64,000 nt of DNA, taken from assembly GCA_028819075.1 (NCBI GenBank), contig JAPPMM010000028.1, positions 124,001 through 188,000 on the forward strand, read 5' to 3'. Positions 38,980-64,000 of the stretch are shown here, in pieces (within the stretch, counting starts at the first letter, position 1; each line of letters starts with the position of its first letter). The notes under the pieces are model-generated. The model made no database searches. It was given only the letters and a program-made list of their open reading frames with translations, and was not told the origin of the DNA. The position numbers and the translations under genes are program-made. Source of the DNA: Gammaproteobacteria bacterium (GTDB taxonomy: Bacteria > Gemmatimonadota > Gemmatimonadetes > Longimicrobiales > Gaopeijiaceae).

Positions 38980-41900
38980 TTATGGAATCGTTGCCGAGCC
39001 GTGATCCGTCTTCCACGTGCCCGCCGGATCCGTCCTGGTATCGACGCGAAGCATGTCCGCTCCCTGCAGGTCGGTCGCGGTTAGGGTGTAGGTGGCGCCT
39101 CCGCCGGCGTCAGGCCAATCGGCAGCGCCAGTGCTGAGGTCAAACGTCCAACTCCACCTGCCCCAGTTGGCGCCCGTGTCGGTGGCTGTGTTGGTGGCCC
39201 TCGCTTCGGCAGGTTCCGCGACCGCCGGGCTGGTGCCCTCAAAGATGACCCATCTCGGGGCGCCGTTGACGCTGACACGCAGCGCGATTCGCTGCTCCAA
39301 CCGCGGGCTGCCCTCTCCACGCCAGGTAGCTGTGATCGAGGTGCCGCTGCGTGTCACCGCGAGGCTCCTGACATCCACATTCACACCGGCAAGCGCCCTG
39401 GGGGCACTGTTGGCGATGGCTGCGGCTGCTGTTCCGTCCGCACCAACCACGGTGTTTCCGATCCTGACGTTGATGTCACCGTAGTCCGGGGCGTCACCGG
39501 CGTCGGAAAGGATGTAGGTGGTCGTCCGCGTGTGCGTTACGGAGGTGCCGTCGGTCGCGGTCGCCGGCCGGGCGTCGGCGTCCGGGGTGTTAGGCGTGCC
39601 GGTGGGCGCAGCAAGGCTGGTGCCGGTCCCGGTCGTCAACTCGACGGTAGCACCAACTGCGGCGGAGTACGCGCCGGTAGCGTTTCTGGTCTCGTACTGC
39701 CACGTCACCCTGACCGTATCCGTAGGCTCCCCGCCGAGGAGAGTGAAGCCACGGGTGGCGGCGTTCGGCACAATGGCGCTGGCCGTGACCTCGCCTTCAT
39801 AGTAGTCCGCTATCGCCACCCGCTGGACCCTCGTGATTCGAGGCTGGACGCTATTCCCCGTGAAGGTGCCGAAACTCAAGGGCTGGCCGGGGATCACCGC
39901 GATCGCACCACCGGGTCTGGTATCGGGGGCATCGAACCAGACATACCTCTCGGCGTCCCTCAACCTCAGGAAGCTCGGGCTGGAGGGCCCATAGTTGCTG
40001 CGAGGCTTGGCGTCGAGGTAGACGGTGCCGCTAAGGGTGGGCACGAAGACGCTGAAGGTCCCGGTCTCCGAGGTTGTGAAGGCATACACGGAATCCGTCA
40101 TGGCCGCGTCTGCCCAAGCCGTGACCGTAACGTCGCGCATGGGTCCGCCACCCGGCGCAGTCACCATGCCGGTAATCTCGGCGGCCCTGCGGCCTTCGAA
40201 GTTGGCTGTGCCGCTCGAGCCGGCGATGGCGGGAACGGGGAAGCTCGTGGGCAGGAAGTGCCAGCCGGACCTGCTCGCGCTCACGTTGACGAGTGGGTCG
40301 TCAAATGGCTGGGCTTCGACAACCGCCATGTAGGAACCGTCGTCCCCCGTCAGGAGCCTCCTCGGGGACCCCGACGCGTTGAGCGGGGCCGCACCGTCCA
40401 CCCGGATCTGCACGCCCTTGATCCCTGCGCCGGTGCCGCTTTCCGTGACCACGCCGCTGATCGTGACGGTGTTGTTCGCGCCATGGAGGGTGAAGTCGTA
40501 TCGCGTCACCGTGTTCGCGGTGAACCCGGGCACGGGGTTGTCGTGCGGGTTGGCGGCGTCGTGGTAGCGCGGGTTGTTGGTGGAATCGGCCCAGGTCGCC
40601 GGGAATCCCGCCCTCGCGGTATTCACGAAGAGCTGGCCCCTCATGGCGGTGATGCCGGGCACGATGTAGCGGCCCAGGTCGTCGGTCGTGGCCGACTCAC
40701 CGTTCACGGTCACGGTCACGTTCTCGAGGCCGAAGCCATCCGTGCTCCGAACGAAGCCGTAGACGGTAGCGGTCGACGGCGTGACCTTGATGTCGAGGTC
40801 GCTTGCAAGCGGGTTGAGCGCGACCGCTGCCCTCATGTCGGCCGCCATCCCCATCCATCCGTCGGGAAGACCGAGCTCGTAGGAGCCGGCCGCCATGGTG
40901 CCGAAGTCGTGGTCCGTGCGCTCGTCGATCGCCGTCGTCGGGTCGTTGCTCCTCGCGGTGGTGAAGGACCGTCCGTCACCCGCGAGATTCTTGCCTTCGA
41001 TCGGCGTCAGGCTGACCGTGATCCCCGACGCCCGCTTGAGACTGGCAGCAGTCGTATTGAACCCGGTGCCCGACTTCGCGACGCCTCTCTTCGACACGTT
41101 CGCGGTCACATTGTGCGTGGTGACGACGGCGAACGAACTGCACTTGCCGAAGTCCTGGCCCGTGGGCTCGACCTCCGTCAGCGGACAGAGCGTCACCGTG
41201 TGCCCCCAGCCGCCCATGTCGCCGAACGCACCGCCCATCACGCCGTTCTCTTCCATGTTGCGATAGGTATCGAGCCGGTCGAGATCCAGCAGCTTGTAGC
41301 CGTCCCTGGCGTTCGCCCGAACGACGATGTCCATGTCCGCCGGCAGGTGGGCGAAGGTGTATTCGCCCGTGGCGTGGCTTGTGTTCTCCCTGGCGTCCCA
41401 GTCGTCGCGCGAGATCGGACGGGTGAGCCTGCCGTCGTTGCCGCTCACCTGGCGGATCTCGAGATCGACCAGTTCTTCCGAAACCCTCTGGTCGCCGCCC
41501 AGGACGTTGCCAGTGTAGCCCATCACCTGGTCGCGCTCGTGGTGCACGTAGACCTTCAGCGTCTGCGTCGTGTAGCTCACCACGATCGGGTCGGCTTCCG
41601 CGGTGGCGCCAGCCACCTTGAGGCCGGTGTGCATGTACGCGCCGTCGACCCCCTCGTACATCTCGCCGCCGTCCAGATCGTCGTCCTGGTCCTCGGCAAC
41701 CGAGAACGTGAAGCTTGCCGGGACCGACGCAACCGTTGTCGCGAAAGCCGCGCTGCCGTCAGCGCCCAGCATCGTCGGCGCGCCCTCGACCGCGGCATCG
41801 CCCATCATGACGCTGATCGCCCAGCCGGCGAGCGCTTCGCCGCCGCCGAAGTCGGTCATGACTGTCGCGCCGCTGACGCTCACGTCGACGTTCAGGTTGA

Positions 41901-43704
41901 CGATGTCGTTGTCGTTCGCGCCCGAAGTCGCAAACATCTGCGGATCCCACGTGACTTCCGTCATGCCGTCGGCCACGTCGTAGCCTTCGGCAGAGACGCC
42001 GGCCATCACCATGTTCCCGCTGGTCATGGCGCGCGCGACCTTGATCGCCACCGAGCCGTCGTCACCGGTCATGCCGCTGCCGACGTTGGCGTCGCTCGCC
42101 CCGTAAAGTGTGACGGAGGCGCCGGGAAGCGCGTCACCCATGTCGTCGCCGCTCCTCAGCGAGACCGAGAAGTTGACCGTCGTGTGGGTGATGTCGAAGG
42201 GAATGGCCTGGGACATGGCCTCGCCGACTCCGAGGGCGAAGGCGTAGCCCGTCCCCGGTCCGCCGTACGCGACGTCGTTGGCCGCGAGCGTGGCCGCAAC
42301 CGTGGCGTCGATCGGCACGACCAGCTGGTAGGAGCCGGCGCGCAGACCCGAGAACATGAACGAGCCGTCAGCCCCGGTCGCGCTCAGCCGCTGGTCATTG
42401 ACCCCCGGGCCCACCAGCGCCACCGGAATACCGGCGTGAGCCAGCGGATGCTCGCCCGCGTCCATCATGTCGTTCTTGTCGAGCTCGTCCAGGAACAGGT
42501 GACCGGAAACGCTCGCGGTGCGCGCGTGCGCGCCCTCGAAGTTCACGATCGCCGACTCGTCGTCGCCGACCGTCCGGTCCATGCTCATCGAGTCGAACAC
42601 GTAGGCGGGGTCGTCGACCGCGATCGAGACCGTGTAGTCGCCCGCCGCCAGACCCGCGAAGGCGTACTGGCCGCCCGCGTCGGTGGTCGTGCTCGCGTCG
42701 GCCGCGCCCGACAGCGTGACCGCGATGTCGCCGAGGCCCATGCCCTCGACGCTCACCCGGCCGCTGATGCCGGAGGTGCGGAGCAGGACGCCCGTGAACG
42801 ACACCGTTCCCGTCTCGTCCAGGTCCACGCTCACGTCCTGCGACGTAGCCGCGAACTCGTAGTCGCGGGTATCGAAGTCGGAGATGCTGACCGTGTAGTC
42901 GCCGGGGCGCAGGTCCTCGAACCTGTACATGCCGTCGACGTCGGTCATCATGGTGAAGTTCTCGTCGGCGGGACCGCCGGCCAGCGTCACCAAAACGCCC
43001 TGGAGGCCTTCGCCCTCGATGACCACCTGGCCCTCGACCGCGGAGGTGCGGATGTAGTGGCCCGTGAAGTCGGCCTGGCCGACCTCGCCCACGTCGACCT
43101 CGACCTCGACGCTCACCGTCTCGAAGGAGACGTCCTCCGGGAAGTCGCTGATCGTCACCGTGTAGGTGCCGGCCCGGAGCCCGGTGAAGGCGAAGCCGCC
43201 GTCCATGCCGGTCTCCATGATCTCGCCCATGGCGTGCTCGCCGCCGAGCGTGACCGTCACGCCGGCCAGCGTTTCGGGCTGGCCGTCGCCGCCGCTCATC
43301 ATGGCGTCGGCCGCGACCACGCTGCCGACCACCGCCGAGGAGCGGATATACTCACCGGCGAAGTTGAGTTGCACGTTCTGACCATCGCTCGCGATGGTCG
43401 CGGACTGCGTCACCTGGGCGAACGTCGCGTCCTCGGGGAAGCCGCTGATGGTGACCGTGTAGGTCCCGGCTTCGACACCCGCGAAGGCGAAGTTGCCTCC
43501 CGCCCCGGTCGTCTGGGTGGCACCGGAGGAAAGGGTGGCGGTGATGCCGGCGGCGGCCGTGCCTTCAATCGTCACCGACCCGGAGATGGTTCCCACGGGA
43601 GTCGGCGGCGGCGGGGGCTCCACCGGCGGTGGAGTGCCCTCGTCGCAGGCAGTGAAGGCCAGCGCCACCAGCGTTGCCGTGGCAAGGATTTTGAGTCGGT
43701 TCAT
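38980..43704 (-). CDS. Giant surface lipoprotein of carboxypeptidase-regulatory-like repeats (copy A)
   Basis: 1574 residues from ATG 43704 behind AGGAGG. Signal LVALAFTAC gives a lipidated Cys. A proline-rich linker follows, then many beta-sandwich repeats of about 75-95 residues of the CarboxypepD_reg/SdrD-B type, with cores like GTYTVTISGFPEDATF, GDYTVSISDFDTRDYEF and GGQYAFAGLAAGDYTVSI. The later part has less regular Ig-like domains. Such proteins form long fibres on the cell surface; no catalytic motif is visible. It heads a three-gene minus-strand set with the LRR metzincin and FN3 autotransporter genes. The second copy is at 54379-58902. Confidence 0.88.
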   Translation of the reverse strand: MNRLKILATATLVALAFTACDEGTPPPVEPPPPPTPVGTISGSVTIEGTAAAGITATLSSGATQTTGAGGNFAFAGVEAGTYTVTISGFPEDATFAQVTQSATIASDGQNVQLNFAGEYIRSSAVVGSVVAADAMMSGGDGQPETLAGVTVTLGGEHAMGEIMETGMDGGFAFTGLRAGTYTVTISDFPEDVSFETVSVEVEVDVGEVGQADFTGHYIRTSAVEGQVVIEGEGLQGVLVTLAGGPADENFTMMTDVDGMYRFEDLRPGDYTVSISDFDTRDYEFAATSQDVSVDLDETGTVSFTGVLLRTSGISGRVSVEGMGLGDIAVTLSGAADASTTTDAGGQYAFAGLAAGDYTVSIAVDDPAYVFDSMSMDRTVGDDESAIVNFEGAHARTASVSGHLFLDELDKNDMMDAGEHPLAHAGIPVALVGPGVNDQRLSATGADGSFMFSGLRAGSYQLVVPIDATVAATLAANDVAYGGPGTGYAFALGVGEAMSQAIPFDITHTTVNFSVSLRSGDDMGDALPGASVTLYGASDANVGSGMTGDDGSVAIKVARAMTSGNMVMAGVSAEGYDVADGMTEVTWDPQMFATSGANDNDIVNLNVDVSVSGATVMTDFGGGEALAGWAISVMMGDAAVEGAPTMLGADGSAAFATTVASVPASFTFSVAEDQDDDLDGGEMYEGVDGAYMHTGLKVAGATAEADPIVVSYTTQTLKVYVHHERDQVMGYTGNVLGGDQRVSEELVDLEIRQVSGNDGRLTRPISRDDWDARENTSHATGEYTFAHLPADMDIVVRANARDGYKLLDLDRLDTYRNMEENGVMGGAFGDMGGWGHTVTLCPLTEVEPTGQDFGKCSSFAVVTTHNVTANVSKRGVAKSGTGFNTTAASLKRASGITVSLTPIEGKNLAGDGRSFTTARSNDPTTAIDERTDHDFGTMAAGSYELGLPDGWMGMAADMRAAVALNPLASDLDIKVTPSTATVYGFVRSTDGFGLENVTVTVNGESATTDDLGRYIVPGITAMRGQLFVNTARAGFPATWADSTNNPRYHDAANPHDNPVPGFTANTVTRYDFTLHGANNTVTISGVVTESGTGAGIKGVQIRVDGAAPLNASGSPRRLLTGDDGSYMAVVEAQPFDDPLVNVSASRSGWHFLPTSFPVPAIAGSSGTANFEGRRAAEITGMVTAPGGGPMRDVTVTAWADAAMTDSVYAFTTSETGTFSVFVPTLSGTVYLDAKPRSNYGPSSPSFLRLRDAERYVWFDAPDTRPGGAIAVIPGQPLSFGTFTGNSVQPRITRVQRVAIADYYEGEVTASAIVPNAATRGFTLLGGEPTDTVRVTWQYETRNATGAYSAAVGATVELTTGTGTSLAAPTGTPNTPDADARPATATDGTSVTHTRTTTYILSDAGDAPDYGDINVRIGNTVVGADGTAAAAIANSAPRALAGVNVDVRSLAVTRSGTSITATWRGEGSPRLEQRIALRVSVNGAPRWVIFEGTSPAVAEPAEARATNTATDTGANWGRWSWTFDLSTGAADWPDAGGGATYTLTATDLQGADMLRVDTRTDPAGTWKTDHGSATIP
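42509..42819. repeat. 311-bp tract identical to the copy B lipoprotein gene
   Basis: Every base in this tract matches 57707-58017 by direct reading, including third codon positions, whereas the flanks diverge within a few bases. It lies within one of the repeat domains of the lipoprotein gene. This pattern suggests recent gene conversion between the two cassette copies. Confidence 0.85.
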
Positions 43705-43897
43705 GGAACCTCCTGGGGTTGGGAATGAAAACCGGCCTGAAGTGGCTGGAAAGAGTCGCGTCCCCCGGGACTCGCAAAAGTGGTGCCAACTTTGAGATCT
43801 GCTTGTTTTTCAATCAGTTACGGACTGTACGCCCTACTCCACGGCATTCGACATCCACGAAAATCCTCGGATTATCGAAACCGACCACTGTTTTCTG

Positions 43898-43938
43898 ATA
43901 CGAAAAAAAGTCGATGCTATATACGAAAAAAAGTCGAT
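43898..43938. promoter_or_regulatory. Direct-repeat operator candidate, copy A
   Basis: Two identical 18-base units at 43898-43915 and 43921-43938. The 23-bp step is about two helical turns. The upstream TTTTC plus GAAAA also forms a small inverted repeat. Copy B has degenerate units at 59097 and 59120 with the same 23-bp step. A regulator dimer, possibly the AraC-like protein, could bind here. Confidence 0.5.
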
Positions 43939-44003
43939 TATCCCGGCAACCATGTTCTGCATAGCTCTTCGACTTCAGGAAGCGATCACCCGGTAAAAAG
44001 TCC

Positions 44004-44014
44004 GGTATAATACC
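44004..44014. promoter_or_regulatory. Palindrome GGTATAATACC, copy A
   Basis: A perfect 5+1+5 inverted repeat that includes a TATAAT-like -10 box. Copy B has GGTACGATACC at the same distance (71 bp) before the shared CCATATTGCGATAG segment. It is a candidate promoter-overlapping operator. Confidence 0.45.
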
Positions 44015-44235
44015 CGGAAACAAATACAGGATGAAACCCGGTATCCTGACCGGCGCGACGAAACGGTGTTCCTCCCATATTGCGATAGTCGAGCGCATAC
44101 GGGCAAGGGCTGACAAAATCACGGTCGCCCGCCCTGCACCGGGAGGCACGGATCAGATCGGAACGCCCCATCTACGCGCTGTATTGCAAGGACAACGAGC
44201 TTGGACTCCTGCTGCAGCGCGCGCTCGCCAGTGCA

Positions 44236-54378: not shown

Positions 54379-57300
54379 CTAGCTTCCACCGGTGACAGAG
54401 GCTGCGACGCTCATCCAATCGCCGGTCGCGCCTTGTCTCGACTCGACTCGGACCATGGTGGCTGCCCTGAGTTCGGCCGCGGTGATGGGGACGTCTGCCG
54501 CACCGCCCGTGACCGCAACGTCCCACGCAACGTTGCCCGCGGGCGCAGTTCCACCGGCGATCTCCAATTCCCACTCCCTGGTAGAGCTGGTAAGCGCGGC
54601 GGGAGCGCCGCCCTCAGCGACGAACCAGAACGTCTGCCCATTCAGCGAGGCCGGAGCCAGCTGGACGGTGATCCGGAACTCCGAACGGTCGTTCGTCGTC
54701 GCGTCCCAGGTGACGGTGAACGTGTCGGCAACGGTGGTATCGGCAGTCACATCAAGTGCAGCCGCGACACCGCTGACTGACGGATCGACCGCCGCAAGCG
54801 TAAACGGACCGGAGTTGAGCACCAGGGGATCGGTGTGCTGCGGATCCACGTCGGTGTCGTTCTGAGCCGTGGCTACGACCCGAACCATGAACTCGCCGTC
54901 GTCGTCGGCGCCGGCAGTGAATCTGCCGAGTCCGGTCGTATCTCCGCCGGCGAGCGCGCCGCCATCAGCGGCCTCCCAGGCACCGTCAGTGCCGGTGTTG
55001 GTCTCGAGGCTGTAGACGGCGTCGCTGTACCCGACGGGCACATCGTCAGCGCTGTCGATCCACCTCACCGTTACGGTGCCGTTGTAGGTCGAGACTCCCG
55101 CCACCGTCGTCGTATCCGTCTCGCGCATCGCACTGACGTTTCTGGCCATCGCCGTCATCGCCTGGATGCGGCCAATGTCCACGGTCTGGCCCGGAGCCGT
55201 GGGCACCGTCCAGCCGGTCGACGACGCCGAGGGGTCGCCGAAGACGTGGTTGTCCAACGACGCCGCGACGGTGTAGCCGCCGTACGGCACGCTGAGCGAG
55301 AACCGGCCAGTCACACCCGTGGTGTCGTGCACGACCAGGGTGGTGTCGGTCGTCGACGTCGCCGAAAGCGCCACGCCGCTCAACGGGCCACCGCCCGGAG
55401 CAACCACTACACCGGTGATCGTGGCGTGCACGAAGCCGGTGAAGTCGATTCCCGAGATGGCCGAATTGGCGTGCGCGGGAAGACCACCGATCGACGCAGG
55501 CGCGAAGCTCATGCCCTTCTTGGAGACGGACACCGAGACCGTTCCGCCCAGTTCGACAGCCTCGACGATCGCCGTGTAGCTGCCTTCGGCGTCCGTCAGG
55601 AGCTTACCGTTCTTGTCGAGGTTGGTCACCTTCGAGCCGGTCACCGTGACCTCTGCACCGGCAACCGGTGCGGCGGTGCCGGACGCCCTGACCGTGCCGC
55701 TGATCGAGGCGGTCTGCCCCACGGCCGACAGGTCGATGTCGAACCTGCTCACCGTGTTCGCGCCGAATTCGACGCCGGTGGAGTCCGGCTTGGTGGCGTT
55801 CTGCCCCTCCTTGGCGGCCGAAACGAAGACCTTGCCCCGCACCGCGCTGACACCGTCCACGATGTAGCGGCCGCTGGCGTCGGTCATGGCCGTCCGTCCG
55901 TTCACGTCCACGGTTACGCCTTCGAGCGGGAAGCCGTCACCACCGTCGACACGGCCGTAGACGGTAGCCGTCGCCGGCGTGACGTCGAGCGAGACCGGGC
56001 CATCGAGCGGGCTGAGCGCGTCGCCGACGTCGGCGGTGGCGCCCTTGTCGCCCATCTTCGCGCGCCATCCGTCCGGAACGTTGAGTTCGTAGGCGCCCGA
56101 GGCGACACCGCTGAAGCTGAATGCGTGGGTCGGGTCGGCGCCCTTGGTCTTGTCCTTGCGATCGTCCTTCTCCGTGGTGGTGAAGGACTCTTCCTCCCCC
56201 GCGAGGTTCTTGCCTTCGACCGGTGACAGGCTGACCGTCTGACCGGGTACGAACACAGGATCCTTCTCTTCGAAGTCGTCACCGCTCTTGGAGACACCCA
56301 TCTTCCACACCAGCCCGCTCACGGTGTGGGTGGTCACGTAGGCGAACGATGCGCACTCGCCGTGGTCCTGAGGCGTGGTGGCCTGTAGCGGGCAGAGCTC
56401 GACCGTGTGGTTGAAACCGCCCATCGCACCGAAGGCGCCGCCCGTGATGCCGTTGACATCCATGCCCGTGTATGCCGCGAGCTCATCGGGCTCGAGGAGC
56501 TTGATGCTCGAGGCGGCGTCGGTCTTGCTCGCCTGGACGATGACGTTCTTGTCGGCCGGCACGTTGGTGAAGGTGTGCACGCCACCGCTGCTGTTGCTCT
56601 TGACCTTGTCCGCCGAGGTGAACGCACGGGAGCGTCCGCTGTCGTCGACGTAGCGGATGCCGACGGAGACCATGCCCTCGTCTCTCACGTCGCCGCCCAG
56701 GAGGTTGCCGGTGTAGCCCATCACCTGGTCGCGCTCGTGGTGCACGTAGACCTTGAGGGTCTGGGTCGAGTAGGCAACCTCGATCGTGCCGGCGTCCATC
56801 GTGCCCGCCAGCGCGAGACCGGTATGCGTGTACTCCACCGCGCTGCCCTCGTAGCTCTCGCCGCCGTCCATCCTGTCGTCCTGGTCGTCGGCGACCGCGA
56901 AGGCGAAGGTCGCGGGCAGGTCGTCCTTGGCCACGGTGGTCATGAGCGCCGCGTTGCCGTCGTCGTCCAGCATCTCGGGCGCGCCTTCGACCGCGTCTTC
57001 GCCGTGCATGACGCCGATCGCCCACCCGGCGAGCGCTTCGCCGCCACCATAGTCGGTGGTGATCGTGGCGCCGCTCACGGTCGCGTCGACGTTCAGGTTG
57101 ACGATGTCGTTGGAGTTCCCGGCCGCGGTCCCGAACATCTGCGGATCCCAGGACACTTCGGTCATGCCGTCGGCCACGTCGTAGCCGTCTGCGGCGACGC
57201 CTGCCATCACCATGTTCCCGCTGGTGCCGGCACGCGCGACCTTGATCATCACCGAGCCGTCGTCGCCGGTGTCGCCGCTGCCGACCTTGTTGTCACCCGA

Positions 57301-58902
57301 GTAGAGCGTGACCGTGGCGCCGGGAACTGCCGCACCCATGTCGTCGCCGTGCTTCAGCGACACCGTGAAGTTCACGGTCGTGTGCGTGATGTCGAACGGG
57401 ATGTTCTGCGCTGCGGCCTCGCCGACGCCGAGCGCGATCGCGTAGCCTTCCCCGGCTCCGCCGTACGCCACGTCGTTGGCCGCGAGCGCTGCCGCGACCG
57501 TGGCGTTGATGAGCACGACGAGCTGGTACGGGCCGGCCTGCAGCTCCGTGAACGAGAACGCGCCGGTCGCGTCGGTCGCGCCCAGCCGCTGCTCGTTGAC
57601 GCCCGGGCCCACCAGTGCAACCGGAATGCCGGCGTGCGCCAGCGGATGCTCGCCCTCGTCGTACATGTTGTTCTTCGTCGCCTCGTCGAGGAACACCATC
57701 CCCGAGACGCTCGCGGTGCGCGCGTGCGCGCCCTCGAAGTTCACGATCGCCGACTCGTCGTCGCCGACCGTCCGGTCCATGCTCATCGAGTCGAACACGT
57801 AGGCGGGGTCGTCGACCGCGATCGAGACCGTGTAGTCGCCCGCCGCCAGACCCGCGAAGGCGTACTGGCCGCCCGCGTCGGTGGTCGTGCTCGCGTCGGC
57901 CGCGCCCGACAGCGTGACCGCGATGTCGCCGAGGCCCATGCCCTCGACGCTCACCCGGCCGCTGATGCCGGAGGTGCGGAGCAGGACGCCCGTGAACGAC
58001 ACCGTTCCCGTCTCGTCGAGATCCACGCTCACGTCCTGCGACGTGGCGGCGAACTCGTAGTCGCGGGTGTCGAAGTCGGAGATGCTGACCGTGTAGTCGC
58101 CGGGACGCAGTTCCTCGAACCGGTACATGCCGTCGGCGTCGGTCATCGCGGTGTAGCTCTCGTCGGCCGGGCCGCCCGACAGGGTGACCGTCACCCCGGC
58201 AAGGCCCTCGCCTTCGATGACCACCTGGCCCTCGACCGCGGAGGTGCGGATGAAGTGGCCCGTGAAGTCGGCGCTGCCGACCTCGCCCACCTCGACCTCG
58301 ACCTCGACGCTCACCGTCTCGAAGGAGACATCCTCCGGGAAGTCGCTGATCGTGACCGTGTAGGTGCCCGCGCGGAGCCCGGTGAAGGCGAAGCCGCCGT
58401 CCTCGGCGGTCTCCATCGTCTCGCCCATGGCGTGCTCGCCGCCGAGCGTGACCGTTACGCCGACCAGCGTTTCGGGCTGGCCGTCGCCGCCGCTCATCAT
58501 CGCGTCGGCCGCAACCACGTTGCCGACCACCGCCGAGGAGCGGATGTACTCACCGGCGAAGTTGAGTTGCACGTTCTGACCATCGCTCGCGATGGTCGCG
58601 GACTGCGTCACCTGGGCGAACGTCGCGTCCTCGGGGAAGCCGCTGATGGTGACCGTGTAGGTCCCGGCCTCGACGCCCGAGAAGGCGAAGCTGCCACCCG
58701 ACCCCGTCGTCGTGGTCGCACCCGACGACAGAGTGGCGGTGATGCCGCTGGCGGCCGTCCCTTCGATCGTCACCGTCCCGGAGATCGTTCCCACGGGAGT
58801 CGGCGGCGGGGGCGGCTCCACAGGCGGCGGAGTGCCCTCGTCGCAGGCGGTGAAGGTCAGGGCCATCAGCGTTGCTGTGGCAAGGAGTTTGAGTCGGTTC
58901 AT
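54379..58902 (-). CDS. Giant surface lipoprotein of carboxypeptidase-regulatory-like repeats (copy B)
   Basis: 1507 residues from ATG 58902 behind AGGAGG. Signal LMALTFTAC gives a lipidated Cys, and the N-terminal third is nearly the same as copy A (same GTISG start and repeats). The C-terminal two thirds are more divergent, with other Ig-like domains such as RFDIDLSAVGQTASISGTV. A 311-bp tract (57707-58017) is identical to copy A. It heads a two-gene minus-strand set with the FN3 autotransporter gene. No enzyme motif is visible; a structural or adhesive role is inferred. Confidence 0.88.
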   Translation of the reverse strand: MNRLKLLATATLMALTFTACDEGTPPPVEPPPPPTPVGTISGTVTIEGTAASGITATLSSGATTTTGSGGSFAFSGVEAGTYTVTISGFPEDATFAQVTQSATIASDGQNVQLNFAGEYIRSSAVVGNVVAADAMMSGGDGQPETLVGVTVTLGGEHAMGETMETAEDGGFAFTGLRAGTYTVTISDFPEDVSFETVSVEVEVEVGEVGSADFTGHFIRTSAVEGQVVIEGEGLAGVTVTLSGGPADESYTAMTDADGMYRFEELRPGDYTVSISDFDTRDYEFAATSQDVSVDLDETGTVSFTGVLLRTSGISGRVSVEGMGLGDIAVTLSGAADASTTTDAGGQYAFAGLAAGDYTVSIAVDDPAYVFDSMSMDRTVGDDESAIVNFEGAHARTASVSGMVFLDEATKNNMYDEGEHPLAHAGIPVALVGPGVNEQRLGATDATGAFSFTELQAGPYQLVVLINATVAAALAANDVAYGGAGEGYAIALGVGEAAAQNIPFDITHTTVNFTVSLKHGDDMGAAVPGATVTLYSGDNKVGSGDTGDDGSVMIKVARAGTSGNMVMAGVAADGYDVADGMTEVSWDPQMFGTAAGNSNDIVNLNVDATVSGATITTDYGGGEALAGWAIGVMHGEDAVEGAPEMLDDDGNAALMTTVAKDDLPATFAFAVADDQDDRMDGGESYEGSAVEYTHTGLALAGTMDAGTIEVAYSTQTLKVYVHHERDQVMGYTGNLLGGDVRDEGMVSVGIRYVDDSGRSRAFTSADKVKSNSSGGVHTFTNVPADKNVIVQASKTDAASSIKLLEPDELAAYTGMDVNGITGGAFGAMGGFNHTVELCPLQATTPQDHGECASFAYVTTHTVSGLVWKMGVSKSGDDFEEKDPVFVPGQTVSLSPVEGKNLAGEEESFTTTEKDDRKDKTKGADPTHAFSFSGVASGAYELNVPDGWRAKMGDKGATADVGDALSPLDGPVSLDVTPATATVYGRVDGGDGFPLEGVTVDVNGRTAMTDASGRYIVDGVSAVRGKVFVSAAKEGQNATKPDSTGVEFGANTVSRFDIDLSAVGQTASISGTVRASGTAAPVAGAEVTVTGSKVTNLDKNGKLLTDAEGSYTAIVEAVELGGTVSVSVSKKGMSFAPASIGGLPAHANSAISGIDFTGFVHATITGVVVAPGGGPLSGVALSATSTTDTTLVVHDTTGVTGRFSLSVPYGGYTVAASLDNHVFGDPSASSTGWTVPTAPGQTVDIGRIQAMTAMARNVSAMRETDTTTVAGVSTYNGTVTVRWIDSADDVPVGYSDAVYSLETNTGTDGAWEAADGGALAGGDTTGLGRFTAGADDDGEFMVRVVATAQNDTDVDPQHTDPLVLNSGPFTLAAVDPSVSGVAAALDVTADTTVADTFTVTWDATTNDRSEFRITVQLAPASLNGQTFWFVAEGGAPAALTSSTREWELEIAGGTAPAGNVAWDVAVTGGAADVPITAAELRAATMVRVESRQGATGDWMSVAASVTGGS
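57707..58017. repeat. 311-bp tract identical to the copy A lipoprotein gene
   Basis: The partner of 42509-42819. The identical block ends within a few bases on both sides where the genes diverge, which fits gene conversion better than uniform constraint. Confidence 0.85.
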
Positions 58903-59096
58903 GGAACCTCCTGAGTGGTGGGAATGGAGTACCGGCCTGAAGTGGCTGGACAGAGTCGCGTGCCCTCGGATAGGCAAAGGTGGTGCCAGTTTGGGAACTT
59001 TCATATTTGACAACCAGTTACGGACTATCACTCCGCTCCTGGGCAAATGGTCAGTCGCGAAATCCTCGAATTATCGAAGACGACCACTGTTTTCTG

Positions 59097-59135
59097 ATAC
59101 GAAAAAAGCGCCGTAATATATACGAATAAAACGAT
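59097..59135. promoter_or_regulatory. Degenerate direct-repeat operator candidate, copy B
   Basis: Two related units, ATACGAAAAAAG at 59097 and ATACGAATAAAACGAT at 59120, spaced 23 bp like the exact pair in copy A. Retained spacing with sequence drift suggests that a protein still uses the pair. Confidence 0.45.
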
Positions 59136-59200
59136 GATTATCTCGGGCGGCCATGTCCACAGTGCTTCGGACCAGGAGGCGCGCAACCTTCAACTCAGCA

Positions 59201-59211
59201 GGTACGATACC
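59201..59211. promoter_or_regulatory. Palindrome GGTACGATACC, copy B
   Basis: Keeps the GGTA and ATACC arms of copy A's 44004-44014 palindrome with two changes in the middle, and lies 71 bp before the shared CCATATTGCGATAG block exactly as in copy A. Confidence 0.45.
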
Positions 59212-59316
59212 CTGTATGAATATAGGGGCGATACCCTTTTTCCTGAAAGGCGCGACGGAACGGTGTTCCTGCCATATTGCGATAGTCGAACGCAAACGGG
59301 CAAGGAGAGGCGCCTC

Positions 59317-59853
59317 GTGAAAGTTCCTGAGAGTTCCGGGAGGCCGAGCCGGGATCCGATGCACGGTCTCGGCTTGAGGCTGCTCTCCGACCCGTCCTTC
59401 AGACCGTCCGTCAGGGAGGCGATCAGCCATGTTTGCGGCCTGCACGACGACGCTGCCGCCACGAGGTTCGTGCCGGCGAGTTCAGTTCACCGGCTGGCGG
59501 GCCAGGTCAACCTGGCGGCGTCGACACTGCGCCAGTACTGGAGAGAGGACCCGCCGCTCCGGTGCCGCCTGAAGGAGTTCATGAACTGGGCTGTCCTGCT
59601 CTGGGCCGTTCGCGCTCGCGCCGGGGCCGGCTGGGAGGCGATCGCCGACCAGGTGGGGCTGCGGCGCCGCACGCTGGAAATCAACGTCGCGCGGATGGCC
59701 GGATGCACGCTCGCGGCGGCGGCCAGGGATCCGGAACGGGTCGTCGAGCGATTCGATGAGTGGGTCGATTCCGTGTGGGAGCCCCGCTCCGTCAACGGAT
59801 CGGGGCCGCACGATCCGGTTTCCGCGCCGGCACCCGACCCACGGGCGACGTGA
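59317..59853 (+). CDS. AraC-like regulator lacking the N-terminal domain (copy B)
   Basis: 178 residues from GTG 59317, behind AAGGAGAGG at 59301-59309. The helix-turn-helix half matches copy A (LRQYWREDPPLRCRLKEFMNW and VGLRRRTLEINVARMAGCTL). About 350 nt coding for the receiver-like domain in copy A are deleted between CGGGCAAGG and GGAGAG. A longer frame from ATG 59134 would replace it with non-coding-like sequence. The stop overlaps the TnpB-like start by GTGA at 59850. The short form suggests constitutive or altered DNA binding. Confidence 0.7.
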   Translation: MKVPESSGRPSRDPMHGLGLRLLSDPSFRPSVREAISHVCGLHDDAAATRFVPASSVHRLAGQVNLAASTLRQYWREDPPLRCRLKEFMNWAVLLWAVRARAGAGWEAIADQVGLRRRTLEINVARMAGCTLAAAARDPERVVERFDEWVDSVWEPRSVNGSGPHDPVSAPAPDPRAT

Positions 59854-60896
59854 CCGTGGACGCATCGGCTGCCCGGCGCTACGTCGGCTGGCGCTGCAGG
59901 CTCTACCCGAGCCCCACCCAGGATGCGGCTCTGCTCAGTTGCAGGAACGGTCTGCGCGAACTCGCGAACGCCCTGCTCGCAGCCTCCCAGCTCAGGTACT
60001 GGGAGACCGGACGGCGCCTGCCGTTGAGCGAGATGCGCGCTTTCGCGCGCGAGTGGCAGCGGAAACCGGAACACCGGGGATCCCCCGCCAGCGCGATCTA
60101 CCGCGTCGCCAGCGATCTCGACCAGGCCTTTCGCAACTGGTTCAGCAAACCCGGCAGACGCGGGCAGGGCGGCTTCCCCCAGATCAAGAGGTTTGGCCGG
60201 GAGCCCGGCATCTACCTGAGCAACCAGGGCATTCGTTTCGAGCACAACCGGGTGCGGTTGCCCAAGTTCGGCTGGGTGCGCTGGAAGGGCGGGAAACTGC
60301 CCGGGAAGAGGCTCTCCGGGCCACGCGGACGCAAGACGCGTGGTCTGCTCTCCGGGCGGGCGTGGCTGGATGCGGGGAACCGCTGGATGCTCTCGTGCCT
60401 GTTCGAGTGCGCGCCGCTCACTCGGGTGGAACCGAGGACGGACAAGGCGGCGGTGCGCCAGAAGGGCAACGAGATCACGGTGTCGGCCGACGGCGGCTCC
60501 GTCCACGTGGTCCGCGAGAGCAGGACGCTCAGGAACGCGCGACGCCGCCTGGCGAGGCTCGAGCGGCGACTGGAGCGATGCGAGTTCGGGTCCGAAGGCC
60601 GCAAGCGCGCCCTTGCTCTCGTGCGCAACCAGGCGCGCAAGGTGAGGAATCGCCGGGGCGATCTGCAGCACAAGACCACCACCGGGGTCGTGCTCGACGC
60701 CCGCGAGATTGAAGTGGAGGGCGCGAGCAGCGAACTGCTGCGCCAGCTCGAATACAAGGCGGAGTGGCACGGCCGCCAACTGAAGGTACGGCGAGGCCCG
60801 CCGAAACCGGGGATCGGCAAACCCCGACGCGCGCGGAGACCGGGAAGCCGGTCAATGAAACGCGAATCGCGGACGCGAAGGCCGAAAGCTCTGTAG
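59850..60896 (+). CDS. Nuclease-dead TnpB-like (IS605 OrfB-derived) protein, copy B
   Basis: 348 residues from GTG 59850, the same length as copy A. It keeps the TnpB landmarks (RLYPSPTQDAALLSC, LDQAFRNWFSKPG, VRLPKFGWVRWKGG, RQLEYKAEWHGR) and the same losses: R203 (KAAVRQK) where the RuvC-I Asp is expected, no insert after EVEG, and no zinc finger or third motif. Many amino-acid differences from copy A are conservative, and no stop or frameshift has appeared. Two independent intact copies argue for selection for a non-cutting function. It overlaps the regulator gene by 4 nt. Confidence 0.8.
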   Translation: MTVDASAARRYVGWRCRLYPSPTQDAALLSCRNGLRELANALLAASQLRYWETGRRLPLSEMRAFAREWQRKPEHRGSPASAIYRVASDLDQAFRNWFSKPGRRGQGGFPQIKRFGREPGIYLSNQGIRFEHNRVRLPKFGWVRWKGGKLPGKRLSGPRGRKTRGLLSGRAWLDAGNRWMLSCLFECAPLTRVEPRTDKAAVRQKGNEITVSADGGSVHVVRESRTLRNARRRLARLERRLERCEFGSEGRKRALALVRNQARKVRNRRGDLQHKTTTGVVLDAREIEVEGASSELLRQLEYKAEWHGRQLKVRRGPPKPGIGKPRRARRPGSRSMKRESRTRRPKAL

Positions 60897-60923
60897 TCGT
60901 CTGCGAAGGCCGGAACGAATCAG
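60717..60923 (+). ncRNA. Candidate omega-RNA-like scaffold at the 3' end of the TnpB-like gene, copy B
   Basis: Same length and endpoint (GGAACGAATCAG) as in copy A, with nine differences by hand count. Several of these fall in loops of putative hairpins. Beyond 60923 the two copies diverge, which could mark the start of a guide segment (CGGGGTGCGAGGG here, GGGATGCGAAGG in copy A). A target for either has not been identified. Confidence 0.48.
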
Positions 60924-60985
60924 CGGGGTGCGAGGGACATGCAAGGCTGGAACACGATCGCCACGACGCCTGCCCGGGTCCGGGG

Positions 60986-62137
60986 TCAGGGGCTGAAGTC
61001 CGGAAAGCCCTCCAGCGACAACACCCGCCGCACAAGATCCGCCTGACCCGAGATGCCCTGTTTGCGGAAGATGTTCTGTATGTGCCAGCGCACCGTGCCT
61101 TCGCTGCGTCCCGTGCGCGCGGCTATGTCACGTGCGTGTTGCCCGGCGGCCACCATGACCGCCAGCCGGCTCTCGGCCGGGGTCAGGTCGAGCGCGGCTT
61201 GCACAAGGCGGACGTCGATGCTGGGCCGACGTTCCGGGTCGACGACCAGGACGAGCGCGGCGACGTGCCCGGCGCGGAAGTCCCGCTGGCGCACCGCCAC
61301 GGGGGTGACGTGCACGACCAGGTTGGTGCGGGATGACGAACGCCTGATGGTCATTGACCCGGACGATCCCGGGCCGCCGAGCCGCGGCAGCGCCTGAGCC
61401 AGCAATTGCTGCAACTCGCCGTTGTCGCGAGGCGTAGTGGCGCTCAGGAACCCTTCCCGGTCCGACAGTTCTCTTGTCTCTCGCAGCAAGCGGCAGGCCC
61501 GGTCGTTCGCCGCAATGATTCGCGCGTTCCGGTCGAGCTGGATGACGCTGCAGCGGCTCTCGTCGAGCAACGCGAAGAGCGAGCGTCCCAGCGCTCCGGC
61601 ATCGGTCAGCGTCTTGCGAACTCGCACGAACTGCCGCACGTGCGGGAGCAGGCGCCGGACCACGGCCAGCTGAGCCGAACTCCAGCCTCCCGGTTCCCGG
61701 GAGTCCGCGAGACTCAGGACGATGTTCGATCCGCCCGGTCCATCCAACCGCACGTTGAGGCCGTTCTGCATCCCGGTCCTGCGCCTCGCCTCGGTGTACG
61801 CCGGCGACTTCTTCTTCTCCCGGTCCGTGTACAGTTCGGCGGTGGGCACCAGCACTCCGTCCGCCAGACGGCCGATGCGGGGAATGCTCTCGTCGCGTTC
61901 CCAATACTCCCTGAAGTACTCCCTCTCGAGGTCCTCGCGGCGTTCGCCGTCGTGGCACAGCTGCATGAACAGGAAGTGTGCATCAGCCTGGGCGCGGCCG
62001 TCGGCAAACGCCAGGGCGCCACCCCTCGTCCCGCTGATCTCGTTGATCAGCAACGCCGCCTCCGACCAGCGCGCCTTGCCGAGCGCCGCCTCCTGCAGCG
62101 ACACCACGACGCGCTCGAACAGATCCGGTGGGTTCAT
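60986..62137 (-). CDS. LuxR-type transcriptional regulator with PAS-like domain (copy B)
   Basis: 383 residues, same layout as copy A: an unassigned N-terminal region, a PAS-like segment (SVIQLDRNARIIAANDRAC), and a C-terminal LuxR helix-turn-helix (LTPAESRLAVMVAAGQHARDIAARTGRSEGTVRWHIQNIFRKQG). It ends 90 nt from the TnpB-like stop and is divergent from the copy B kinase gene, with which it shares the 304-nt region at 62138-62441. Confidence 0.9.
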   Translation of the reverse strand: MNPPDLFERVVVSLQEAALGKARWSEAALLINEISGTRGGALAFADGRAQADAHFLFMQLCHDGERREDLEREYFREYWERDESIPRIGRLADGVLVPTAELYTDREKKKSPAYTEARRRTGMQNGLNVRLDGPGGSNIVLSLADSREPGGWSSAQLAVVRRLLPHVRQFVRVRKTLTDAGALGRSLFALLDESRCSVIQLDRNARIIAANDRACRLLRETRELSDREGFLSATTPRDNGELQQLLAQALPRLGGPGSSGSMTIRRSSSRTNLVVHVTPVAVRQRDFRAGHVAALVLVVDPERRPSIDVRLVQAALDLTPAESRLAVMVAAGQHARDIAARTGRSEGTVRWHIQNIFRKQGISGQADLVRRVLSLEGFPDFSP

Positions 62138-62441
62138 GGTACCTGCCTCGCCGCGTCACCCGAACACGCGCCTCCGGTAGCCAAATGGAGCCATAGCCTG
62201 GACACAGCGCCCCCATGCTTACCGCAAGCCCGTCATTCAAGGTAGCCGATAACATGTGATTTGTCAGTCATATTCTGAGGTCGATTAGTGATATTTAAGT
62301 GATATTACGAAATGCGGACACGTCCGGACTAGTTCTTATATGAGGATTGGATGACATTTTGAGTCGGGTTTGCGATGTTTTGGTGACGCACCGGTTGTAT
62401 CCGGGGACAGGACGACGGACGAGCTCCGGGGGGGTGGGCCG
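62138..62441. promoter_or_regulatory. Divergent regulatory region between LuxR and kinase genes (copy B)
   Basis: 304 nt without a gene. The section 62240-62345 is AT-rich and holds two direct AGTGATATT half-sites at 62287 and 62298, an 11-bp step, followed by a CGGACACGTCCG palindrome at 62315-62326. A short GGGGGG stretch precedes the kinase start. Confidence 0.55.
62287..62306. promoter_or_regulatory. Tandem AGTGATATT half-sites, PhoB-like spacing
   Basis: AGTGATATT occurs at 62287-62295 and 62298-62306. An 11-bp step is the usual arrangement of OmpR/PhoB-family operators. It lies upstream of the kinase; copy A's kinase carries an OmpR-type winged helix, but copy B's own C-terminus lies outside the window. 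Confidence 0.4.
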
Positions 62442-64000
62442 GTGACAGGCCACCCGGACGCGCTGGGAATCGAGGAGCGCGTTTCGCAACTCTGCAACGC
62501 GATCCTGCGCATCAATGCGAGCCTGGACCTTGCAACCGTCCTGCAGGAAGTCGTCGACAGCGCCCGAGCCCTGACCGGTGCCCGCCATGGCCTGATCGCC
62601 ACCGTCGACGATGCGGGCGAACCCGAATCCTGGGTCGCCTCCGGGCTGACGCGGGAGCAGTTGCGGCAGCTCGAGGAATGGGAAGATGCGCTCCGGGTCT
62701 TCGAGCGTTTCCGCGATCTTCCGGATGCGGTGCGGATCGGGGATCTGCCGACCTGGCTCCGGTCGTGCGGTTTCCTGCCCGTCGCCATTGCATCCCGGAC
62801 GCTGCAGGCCACGCCGATCCGTCATCGGGGCATCTACGCCGGCAGTGTCTTTCTCGTCGGAAAGGACGGAGACCGCGAGTTCACCCGCGAGGACGAGGAG
62901 GTTCTCGTGCTGCTGGCGTCGCAGGCAGCGACGGCGATCGCCAATGCCCGCACCTTCCGCGAGGAGCAGCGTGCGCGCACGAAGTTCCTGGGGATCGTGA
63001 CGCACGAGTTGCGCGCGCCGCTGGCCGCCATCAAGGGCTCGTCAACCACGGTGCTCGGGGCGTCCACGCGCTTCTCTTCCGCCGAGATGCTGCAGTTCTT
63101 CCGGATCATCGACGAGCAGGCCGACAACATGAGCGTCCTCATGGGCGATCTGCTCGATGCGGGGCGGATCGCGACGGGCACCCTGTCAATCTCGCCCGAA
63201 GCCTCGGACGTCGGAGCGCTGATCGACCGGGCGAGGAACACGTTCCTGGGCGCCGGCGGCCAGCAGGGCGTGCGCGTCGACGTTCCTCCGGACCTGCCGA
63301 GCGTGCTGGTGGACCGGAAGCGCATCGTGCAGGTCCTGGGCAACCTCCTCTCCAATGCGGCAAAACACTCTCAGGCATCGTCCCCGATAGAGGTGAGCGC
63401 CCGGCGGGACGGCGTGCACGTCGCGATCTCGGTCTCGGACTATGGCAAGGGCATCCCGCCCGAACGGCTCGCGCGATTGTTCTCCCGGCGGGCCGGTGCG
63501 GGCGACGGAAGGCGGGGTGTGGCGACGGGCCTGGGGCTCGCCATCTGCAATGGGCTGGTGGAGGCGCACGGAGGGCGCATCCGGGCGGAGAGCGGAGGCG
63601 AGGACCGGGGCGCCCGGTTCACGTTCACCGTCCCCATCGCCGAGGAGGCCGGCGGCGACGTGACGGCGCCGGAATCCTACGCGCGGCAACGCTCCCATCG
63701 AGGCGGGAAGCCGACGCGCATCCTGGTGGTGGACGACGACCCGCAGGCGCTGTTCTTCGTCCGCGATGCGCTCACCACGGCAGGGTACGCCGTGCTCGAG
63801 ACGGGCGAGCCGCGGGAACTGTCGAGCATCATTCGCGCGGAGCGGCCGCACCTGGTCCTGCTCGATCTGATGTTTCCCGGGACCGACGGCATCAAGCTGA
63901 TGGAACAGGTTCCGGACCTGGCCGATCTGCCGGTCATCTTCATCTCCGCCTACGCGCGGGACGAAACGATCGCGAAGGCTTTCGAAGCCGGGGCCGCCGA
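62442..64000 (+). CDS. Hybrid histidine kinase with receiver, 3' end outside window (copy B)
   Basis: At least 519 residues from GTG 62442. Domains: GAF (about 20-170), HisKA with His near 188 (VTHELRAPLAAIKGS), HATPase (SDYGKGIPPERLARL, TGLGLAICNGLVEAHGGR) and a receiver with DLVLLDLMFPGTDG-like DLMFPGTDG. Compared with copy A the PAS domain between GAF and HisKA is absent. The DNA-binding domain expected by analogy with copy A would lie beyond base 64000 and cannot be confirmed. It is divergent from the LuxR gene. Confidence 0.87.
   Translation, partial: MTGHPDALGIEERVSQLCNAILRINASLDLATVLQEVVDSARALTGARHGLIATVDDAGEPESWVASGLTREQLRQLEEWEDALRVFERFRDLPDAVRIGDLPTWLRSCGFLPVAIASRTLQATPIRHRGIYAGSVFLVGKDGDREFTREDEEVLVLLASQAATAIANARTFREEQRARTKFLGIVTHELRAPLAAIKGSSTTVLGASTRFSSAEMLQFFRIIDEQADNMSVLMGDLLDAGRIATGTLSISPEASDVGALIDRARNTFLGAGGQQGVRVDVPPDLPSVLVDRKRIVQVLGNLLSNAAKHSQASSPIEVSARRDGVHVAISVSDYGKGIPPERLARLFSRRAGAGDGRRGVATGLGLAICNGLVEAHGGRIRAESGGEDRGARFTFTVPIAEEAGGDVTAPESYARQRSHRGGKPTRILVVDDDPQALFFVRDALTTAGYAVLETGEPRELSSIIRAERPHLVLLDLMFPGTDGIKLMEQVPDLADLPVIFISAYARDETIAKAFEAGAA

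Follow-up and report, generated by a model that had tools for sequence, protein, structure and literature searches.

TldRs are TnpB-like, nuclease-dead repressors that have evolved associations with genes outside transposons; according to the accessible part of the paper describing them, their guides are effective down to a length of 6 nt, and paralogous TldR loci are predicted to cross-target (PMC13418256). They show that transposon nucleases can turn into gene regulators, and the published cases in the literature that we searched concern flagellin, as far as the accessible text of these sources goes. In this literature, which took in little from subscription journals, we found no mention of the system described below, nor does the accessible part of the Palauibacterales paper (PMC10469786) mention it.

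The window, i.e., the whole 64,000-nucleotide stretch of DNA analysed here, is part of a host genome of 4.4 Mb in 65 contigs. We take the host to be a Palauibacter-type member of the Gemmatimonadota, presumably of marine-sponge origin. Self-comparison of the DNA places two TnpB-like genes, copy A (45012..46058, plus strand) and its paralogue copy B (59850..60896, plus strand), in a duplicated block of approximately 10 kb. The gene order is the same in blocks A and B: a giant surface lipoprotein gene on the minus strand (38980..43704 in block A; 54379..58902 in block B); an AraC-type regulator gene on the plus strand (44236..45015; 59134..59853, the latter with an approximate start); the TnpB-like gene; a PAS-LuxR-type regulator gene on the minus strand (46102..47253; 60986..62137); and a hybrid histidine kinase/response regulator gene on the plus strand (47380..49803; 62370..64000, where it runs off the window). 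The lipoprotein gene is divergent from the regulator-TnpB pair, with a leader/promoter region in between (43705..44235; 58903..59133) that, for block B, is kept across clade-1 loci. DNA identity between the two blocks is approximately 0.75-0.95 in the genes for the regulator, TnpB, and LuxR and falls to near 0.5 where the lipoprotein gene reaches its distal end. Between the lipoprotein paralogues themselves, identity is 93-100% at the N-terminus and approximately 50% at the opposite end, which gives them the look of a mosaic-like surface protein.

Copies A and B each have 348 codons and agree at 290 of 348 residues (83%) and 905 of 1044 bases. Both overlap the upstream regulator ORF by 4 nt (ATGA in copy A, GTGA in copy B, where the start codon is GTG). 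The best PDB sequence matches are TnpBs (E about 3e-13), and the NCBIfam model guided_TnpB is matched at 74.8 bits, below its curated cut-off of 100. Copy A is predicted to have the TnpB fold (mean pLDDT 75), and its model matches the TnpB-omegaRNA-DNA complex 8h1j (E 2.8e-19, TM 0.73) and other TnpB and Cas12f structures. When aligned to ISDra2 TnpB, both copies have R203 where its first catalytic residue, the RuvC-I aspartate (which we take to be D191), would be. E290, present in both copies, aligns with the second catalytic residue. In the same alignment the third catalytic aspartate and the zinc finger are absent from copies A and B, and the stretch between E290 and a conserved LEYKAEWHGR motif is shortened. 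These residues suggest that both copies have lost cleavage.

Are such losses confined to the two copies? The RuvC-I aspartate is kept in none of the 32 family loci. This count leaves out L079, L095, L096, and L097 (from G009, which belongs to the window's own species), the contig-end fragment L098, and, as repeat records of counted places by identity and coordinates, L035-L037 and L039-L050. Most loci have arginine at this position, the others being histidine in L075, alanine in L064, L077, L087, and L088, glutamate in L091, and methionine in L094. The equivalent of E290 is aspartate in L063 and glutamine in L070. The zinc finger is retained and the third aspartate is gone in L064 and L077, in a comparison from which rows A, C10a, and G6b were left out. 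In a tree built with eight triad-intact TnpBs of the same family, a branch with support 88/96 groups the 15 dead rows together, so that a single loss of catalysis in the dead lineage is the simplest reading; the wider tree is less certain because of its long branches. One apparent loss of catalysis would then have been followed by graded losses, with the zinc finger retained in some branches and absent in others.

Matches occur in 24 of the 121 family genomes searched, including the window genome and the genome of the same species, and within the genus every genome except one that is incomplete has a match. Five OrfB_IS605 matches are found in the window genome, four of them above the Pfam cut-off and all belonging to the nuclease-dead family; no Y1 transposase was found in this genome. 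A phage origin was considered and rejected: in viral contigs, one distant relative was found, at 22% identity.

The initial annotation had seen in copy B a second intact copy, of the same length and with the same losses as copy A, and had concluded that a function without cleavage is under selection. Both copies are indeed open over 348 codons with R203 and the 4-nt overlap in place. Over codons 1-297, the A-B comparison gives dN 0.091, dS 0.676, and dN/dS of 0.134 by YN00 and 0.292 by NG86. Within clade 1, dN/dS ranges from 0.054 to 0.193 by YN00 (median 0.107; 88 of 91 pairs among 14 rows, dS>0.1) and from 0.154 to 0.416 by NG86 (90 pairs). YN00 returned no value for two clade-1 and nine clade-2 pairs, and the pairs with dS<0.1, B-G3 and G23-G19a, were set aside; B-G3 alone has dN/dS 0.445 at dS 0.019. 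With dN/dS of 0.13 in the A-B body, the copies are therefore under selection. The frame is fully open in 14 of the 16 clade-1 loci, and G005 and G007 have a common 1-nt deletion that is confined to the RNA-scaffold tail. The annotation's reading is thus borne out by dN/dS far below 1, between the copies and across clade-1 homologues, and by relatives that are mostly intact rather than broken, with the loss of cleavage read from the residues. Among the candidates set aside, a decaying transposase is rejected in view of dN/dS and of the intact frames in relatives.

In 21 aligned gene ends, the DNA is near-invariant from the LEYKAEWHGR codons to 28 nt past the stop codon. The invariant stretch ends in GGCCGGAACGAATCAG, after which the sequences are unrelated. 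Such a pattern is typical of TnpB, where the omegaRNA scaffold leads directly into the guide. The omegaRNA-like scaffold is 134 nt long (45952..46085 for copy A; 60790..60923 for copy B; both on the plus strand) and in copy B covers the final codons and a further 27 nt past the stop. In the body, 67 of 89 fourfold columns are variable, whereas the tail has 6 such columns out of 28 (Fisher p 6.5e-7), and pairwise fourfold differences amount to 27.8% versus 6.7%. The scaffold DNA continues beyond the frameshift in G005 and G007 and past an earlier stop in three clade-2 genes (G019, G023, G029). Tail dN/dS by NG86 is often 0.5-1, with frozen synonymous sites, and on these grounds we reject the identical C-terminus as a sign of selection on the protein. 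The shared length and C-terminal truncation, which had been counted in favour of protein function, follow largely from the RNA scaffold, of which the shared C-terminus is for the most part read-through.

The consensus fold of the scaffold has 30 pairs, with compensatory changes at five; support from covariation is modest because these changes are mostly one difference between two clades. Taken alone, the scaffold of copy A folds no better than shuffled sequences (z -0.21). Of 117 family genomes, 15 have a scaffold detected by a covariance model, and a search of Rfam gave one sub-threshold match, to Transposase-2 RNA (13.9 bits vs 42.7). One gene in G001 is surrounded by three scaffolds, and at L077:8085-10004 one TnpB gene with three scaffold copies lies upstream of a lipoprotein gene. 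A stand-alone scaffold at C50 was considered as a retained second RNA, which its pair-breaking substitutions make doubtful. At L062:9930-12108, two copies of the TnpB 3' end plus scaffold flank 2 kb of inserted DNA with two toxin-antitoxin-type ORFs, one AbiEi-like and one RES-like (named by eye from their translations). At L070:1300-6300, several kilobases of unrelated genes directly follow the scaffold, among them an AbiEi/AbiEii-like pair and a P450-like ORF, and the scaffold end here resembles an insertion hot spot.

We are also interested in the neighbours of the dead genes. Within the flanks fetched, 24 of 32 dead loci have a gene for a lipoprotein of the same family, versus 0 of 14 triad-intact loci (Fisher p 1.3e-6, which describes the contrast and not independent events because the loci are related by descent); the 14 include two near-identical fragments from a single genome and two loci on contigs of approximately 4 kb. 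The distance of the lipoprotein gene from the regulator-TnpB unit is mostly within about 1.6 kb, with 4.6 kb in L085 and approximately 9 kb in L063. For five of the eight dead loci without a lipoprotein gene (L066, L068, L070, L080, and L081), the sequence on the side in question stops after no more than about 2 kb; the other three, L074, L078, and L086, have none in a flank that is at least partly present. The lipoproteins contain CarboxypepD_reg, SdrD_B, and related repeats and start with a lipobox-like LAFTAC (by eye); the window genome has several paralogues.

The AraC-type regulator of block A appears to combine an alpha/beta half at its N-terminus with an AraC/MarA-like double HTH at its C-terminus; the N-terminal half is missing from the regulator of block B. 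The regulator model (mean pLDDT 71) reaches Z 9.9 to the AraT C-terminus and 9.7 to MarA, and weak matches come from Foldseek (E 0.025) and Pfam (HTH_18, below the cut-off). For the N-terminal half, alpha/beta in the model, no receiver domain appears among the matches listed, which excludes nothing. The AraC-type partner is co-encoded in clade 1 and is also found near L092 and L094. The clade-2 loci L082, L083, and L084 have a lipoprotein gene nearby and no AraC-type regulator in the fetched flank, so the partner is not essential there. Homologues of the regulator also exist without an adjoining TnpB; at L149:4091-8167, a LuxR-type gene is found with a frameshifted AraC-type homologue, and neither TnpB nor lipoprotein is nearby.

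What might a dead TnpB do in such a setting? The lost cutting residues, the purifying selection, the conserved scaffold, and the association with a regulator and a giant surface protein, all of them read from sequence, together make it probable that the protein controls genes rather than cutting DNA. We lean, with somewhat better than even confidence, towards a new TldR-like clade, in which a nuclease-dead TnpB ribonucleoprotein (RNP) with an AraC-type partner acts on the adjacent surface-protein gene. A Gemmatimonadota family (Palauibacter relatives) would have taken over a nuclease-dead TnpB from IS200/IS605-type transposons. The protein, produced along with the putative DNA-binding AraC-type protein of the overlapping gene, would bind its own omegaRNA-like RNA from the 3' end of the gene and form a non-cutting RNP. 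The most likely role of this RNP would be transcriptional control of the neighbouring giant lipoprotein gene, which it would probably repress, as a TldR does, from the divergent promoter region. Our search for a sigma-70-like promoter and a terminator found none, which counts against this reading.

The presumed guide follows the scaffold on the plus strand, at 46086..46101 in copy A (up to the stop codon of the LuxR-type gene) and at 60924..60943 in copy B (start within a few nucleotides). It differs at nearly every locus, including between A and B, for which the initial annotation had suggested that paralogues might have different targets; our searches found no target for either. The related loci G005, G007, and G008 have indels in the first bases after the scaffold, while B, G003, and G010 have a post-scaffold stretch in common, the meaning of which is blurred by recombination patches. 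In some loci, strong hairpins begin right behind the scaffold and would mask a guide: C10a (L063:11036; z -5.0) and G6b (L078:8665; z -4.3), with different sequences, and G8 and G5 (both z -2.3). Exact and mismatch searches in the fetched loci for targets of clade-1 and clade-2 guides gave nothing above chance, at guide lengths above the 6 nt that would escape such searches. Guides matched the upstream region of their own lipoprotein gene as well as they matched those of others (17 guide entries); genome-wide pattern searches with guides A and B gave as many matches as the reversed-pattern control, and neither guide has a 16-nt match with at most one mismatch elsewhere in the genome. The sequence supports an RNA-binding dead TnpB, and RNA-guided targeting is putative. 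With guides unconserved among relatives and promoter matches at chance, there is room for guide-independent action.

It is therefore worth taking seriously, as an unlikely alternative, that the guide has been abandoned, the RNA being a structural cofactor or an autoregulatory element of its own mRNA and the AraC-type partner providing DNA specificity. A strongly conserved scaffold beside an unconserved, indel-ridden guide position would fit, as would the post-scaffold hairpins, the negative target searches, and the AraC-type partner co-encoded in clade 1 and found near L092 and L094. However, L082, L083, and L084 stand near lipoprotein genes without such a regulator in the fetched flank, and guides may be very short, 6 nt being enough for one TldR in the accessible text (PMC13418256). 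As a conclusion in its own right, an RNP without guidance, in which the scaffold RNA is a structural or regulatory cofactor and the AraC-type protein of the same operon gives DNA specificity, seems to us decidedly unlikely; a former RNA-guided nuclease would then have turned into one of two parts, the RNA-dependent one, of a transcription factor controlling a giant surface protein. We also regard as unlikely an RNA-guided binder with targets elsewhere, such as lipoprotein paralogues or mobile DNA, for which the adjacent lipoprotein is a partner and not the target. Guides that differ at nearly every locus and several lipoprotein paralogues in one genome agree with this idea, and Oscillibacter TldR paralogues are reported to cross-target fliC homologues (accessible part of PMC13418256); yet the absence of 16-nt matches (at most one mismatch) to guides A and B elsewhere in the genome and the long-standing lipoprotein neighbourhood speak against it. 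A transposon remnant that has no function, is decaying, and was duplicated together with the genes around it would account for two copies in one duplicated block, the loss of catalytic residues and of the C-terminal domain, and the one broken family member, G022, but is very improbable given dN/dS far below 1, 14 of 16 open clade-1 loci, and a scaffold conserved at synonymous and non-coding sites. Just as improbable is an accessory nuclease of a transposon that still works through a rearranged active site: E290 is present in both copies, but all 32 loci have R, H, A, E, or M instead of the first aspartate, A and B lack the third aspartate as well as the zinc finger, the E290 equivalent varies (D in L063, Q in L070), and the genome has no Y1 transposase.

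How does the TldR-like clade proposed here compare with known systems? ISDra2 TnpB (IS200/IS605) is similar in fold (TM 0.73 to 8h1j) and sequence (E about 3e-13), but copies A and B lack its first and third catalytic aspartates, its zinc finger, and its mobile context. The nuclease-dead Cas12f complexes 9n9c and 9n9m, matched by structure, are non-cutting, RNA-guided relatives of similar fold. Dead Cas12f works with a sigma factor, whereas the partner here is AraC-type. The closest likeness is to TldRs, which, in the accessible part of their description, also have a TnpB homologue with an inactivated RuvC, a scaffold resembling a guide RNA at the gene's 3' end, a stable association with a non-transposon gene for a surface structure, and several paralogous loci per genome (PMC13418256). 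Unlike TldRs, the dead TnpBs described here come from a different phylum and have lost the C-terminal domain, their guide-target searches are negative, and their partners are an AraC-type regulator and a giant CarboxypepD_reg lipoprotein rather than flagellin, CsrA, or a prophage. The lineage makes it testable whether RNA guidance is dispensable, and control of the giant lipoproteins, if real, may set the surface presentation of a sponge symbiont. As a second lineage, in another phylum and with a different surface-protein partner, it would be an independent case of an RNA-guided nuclease becoming a regulator.
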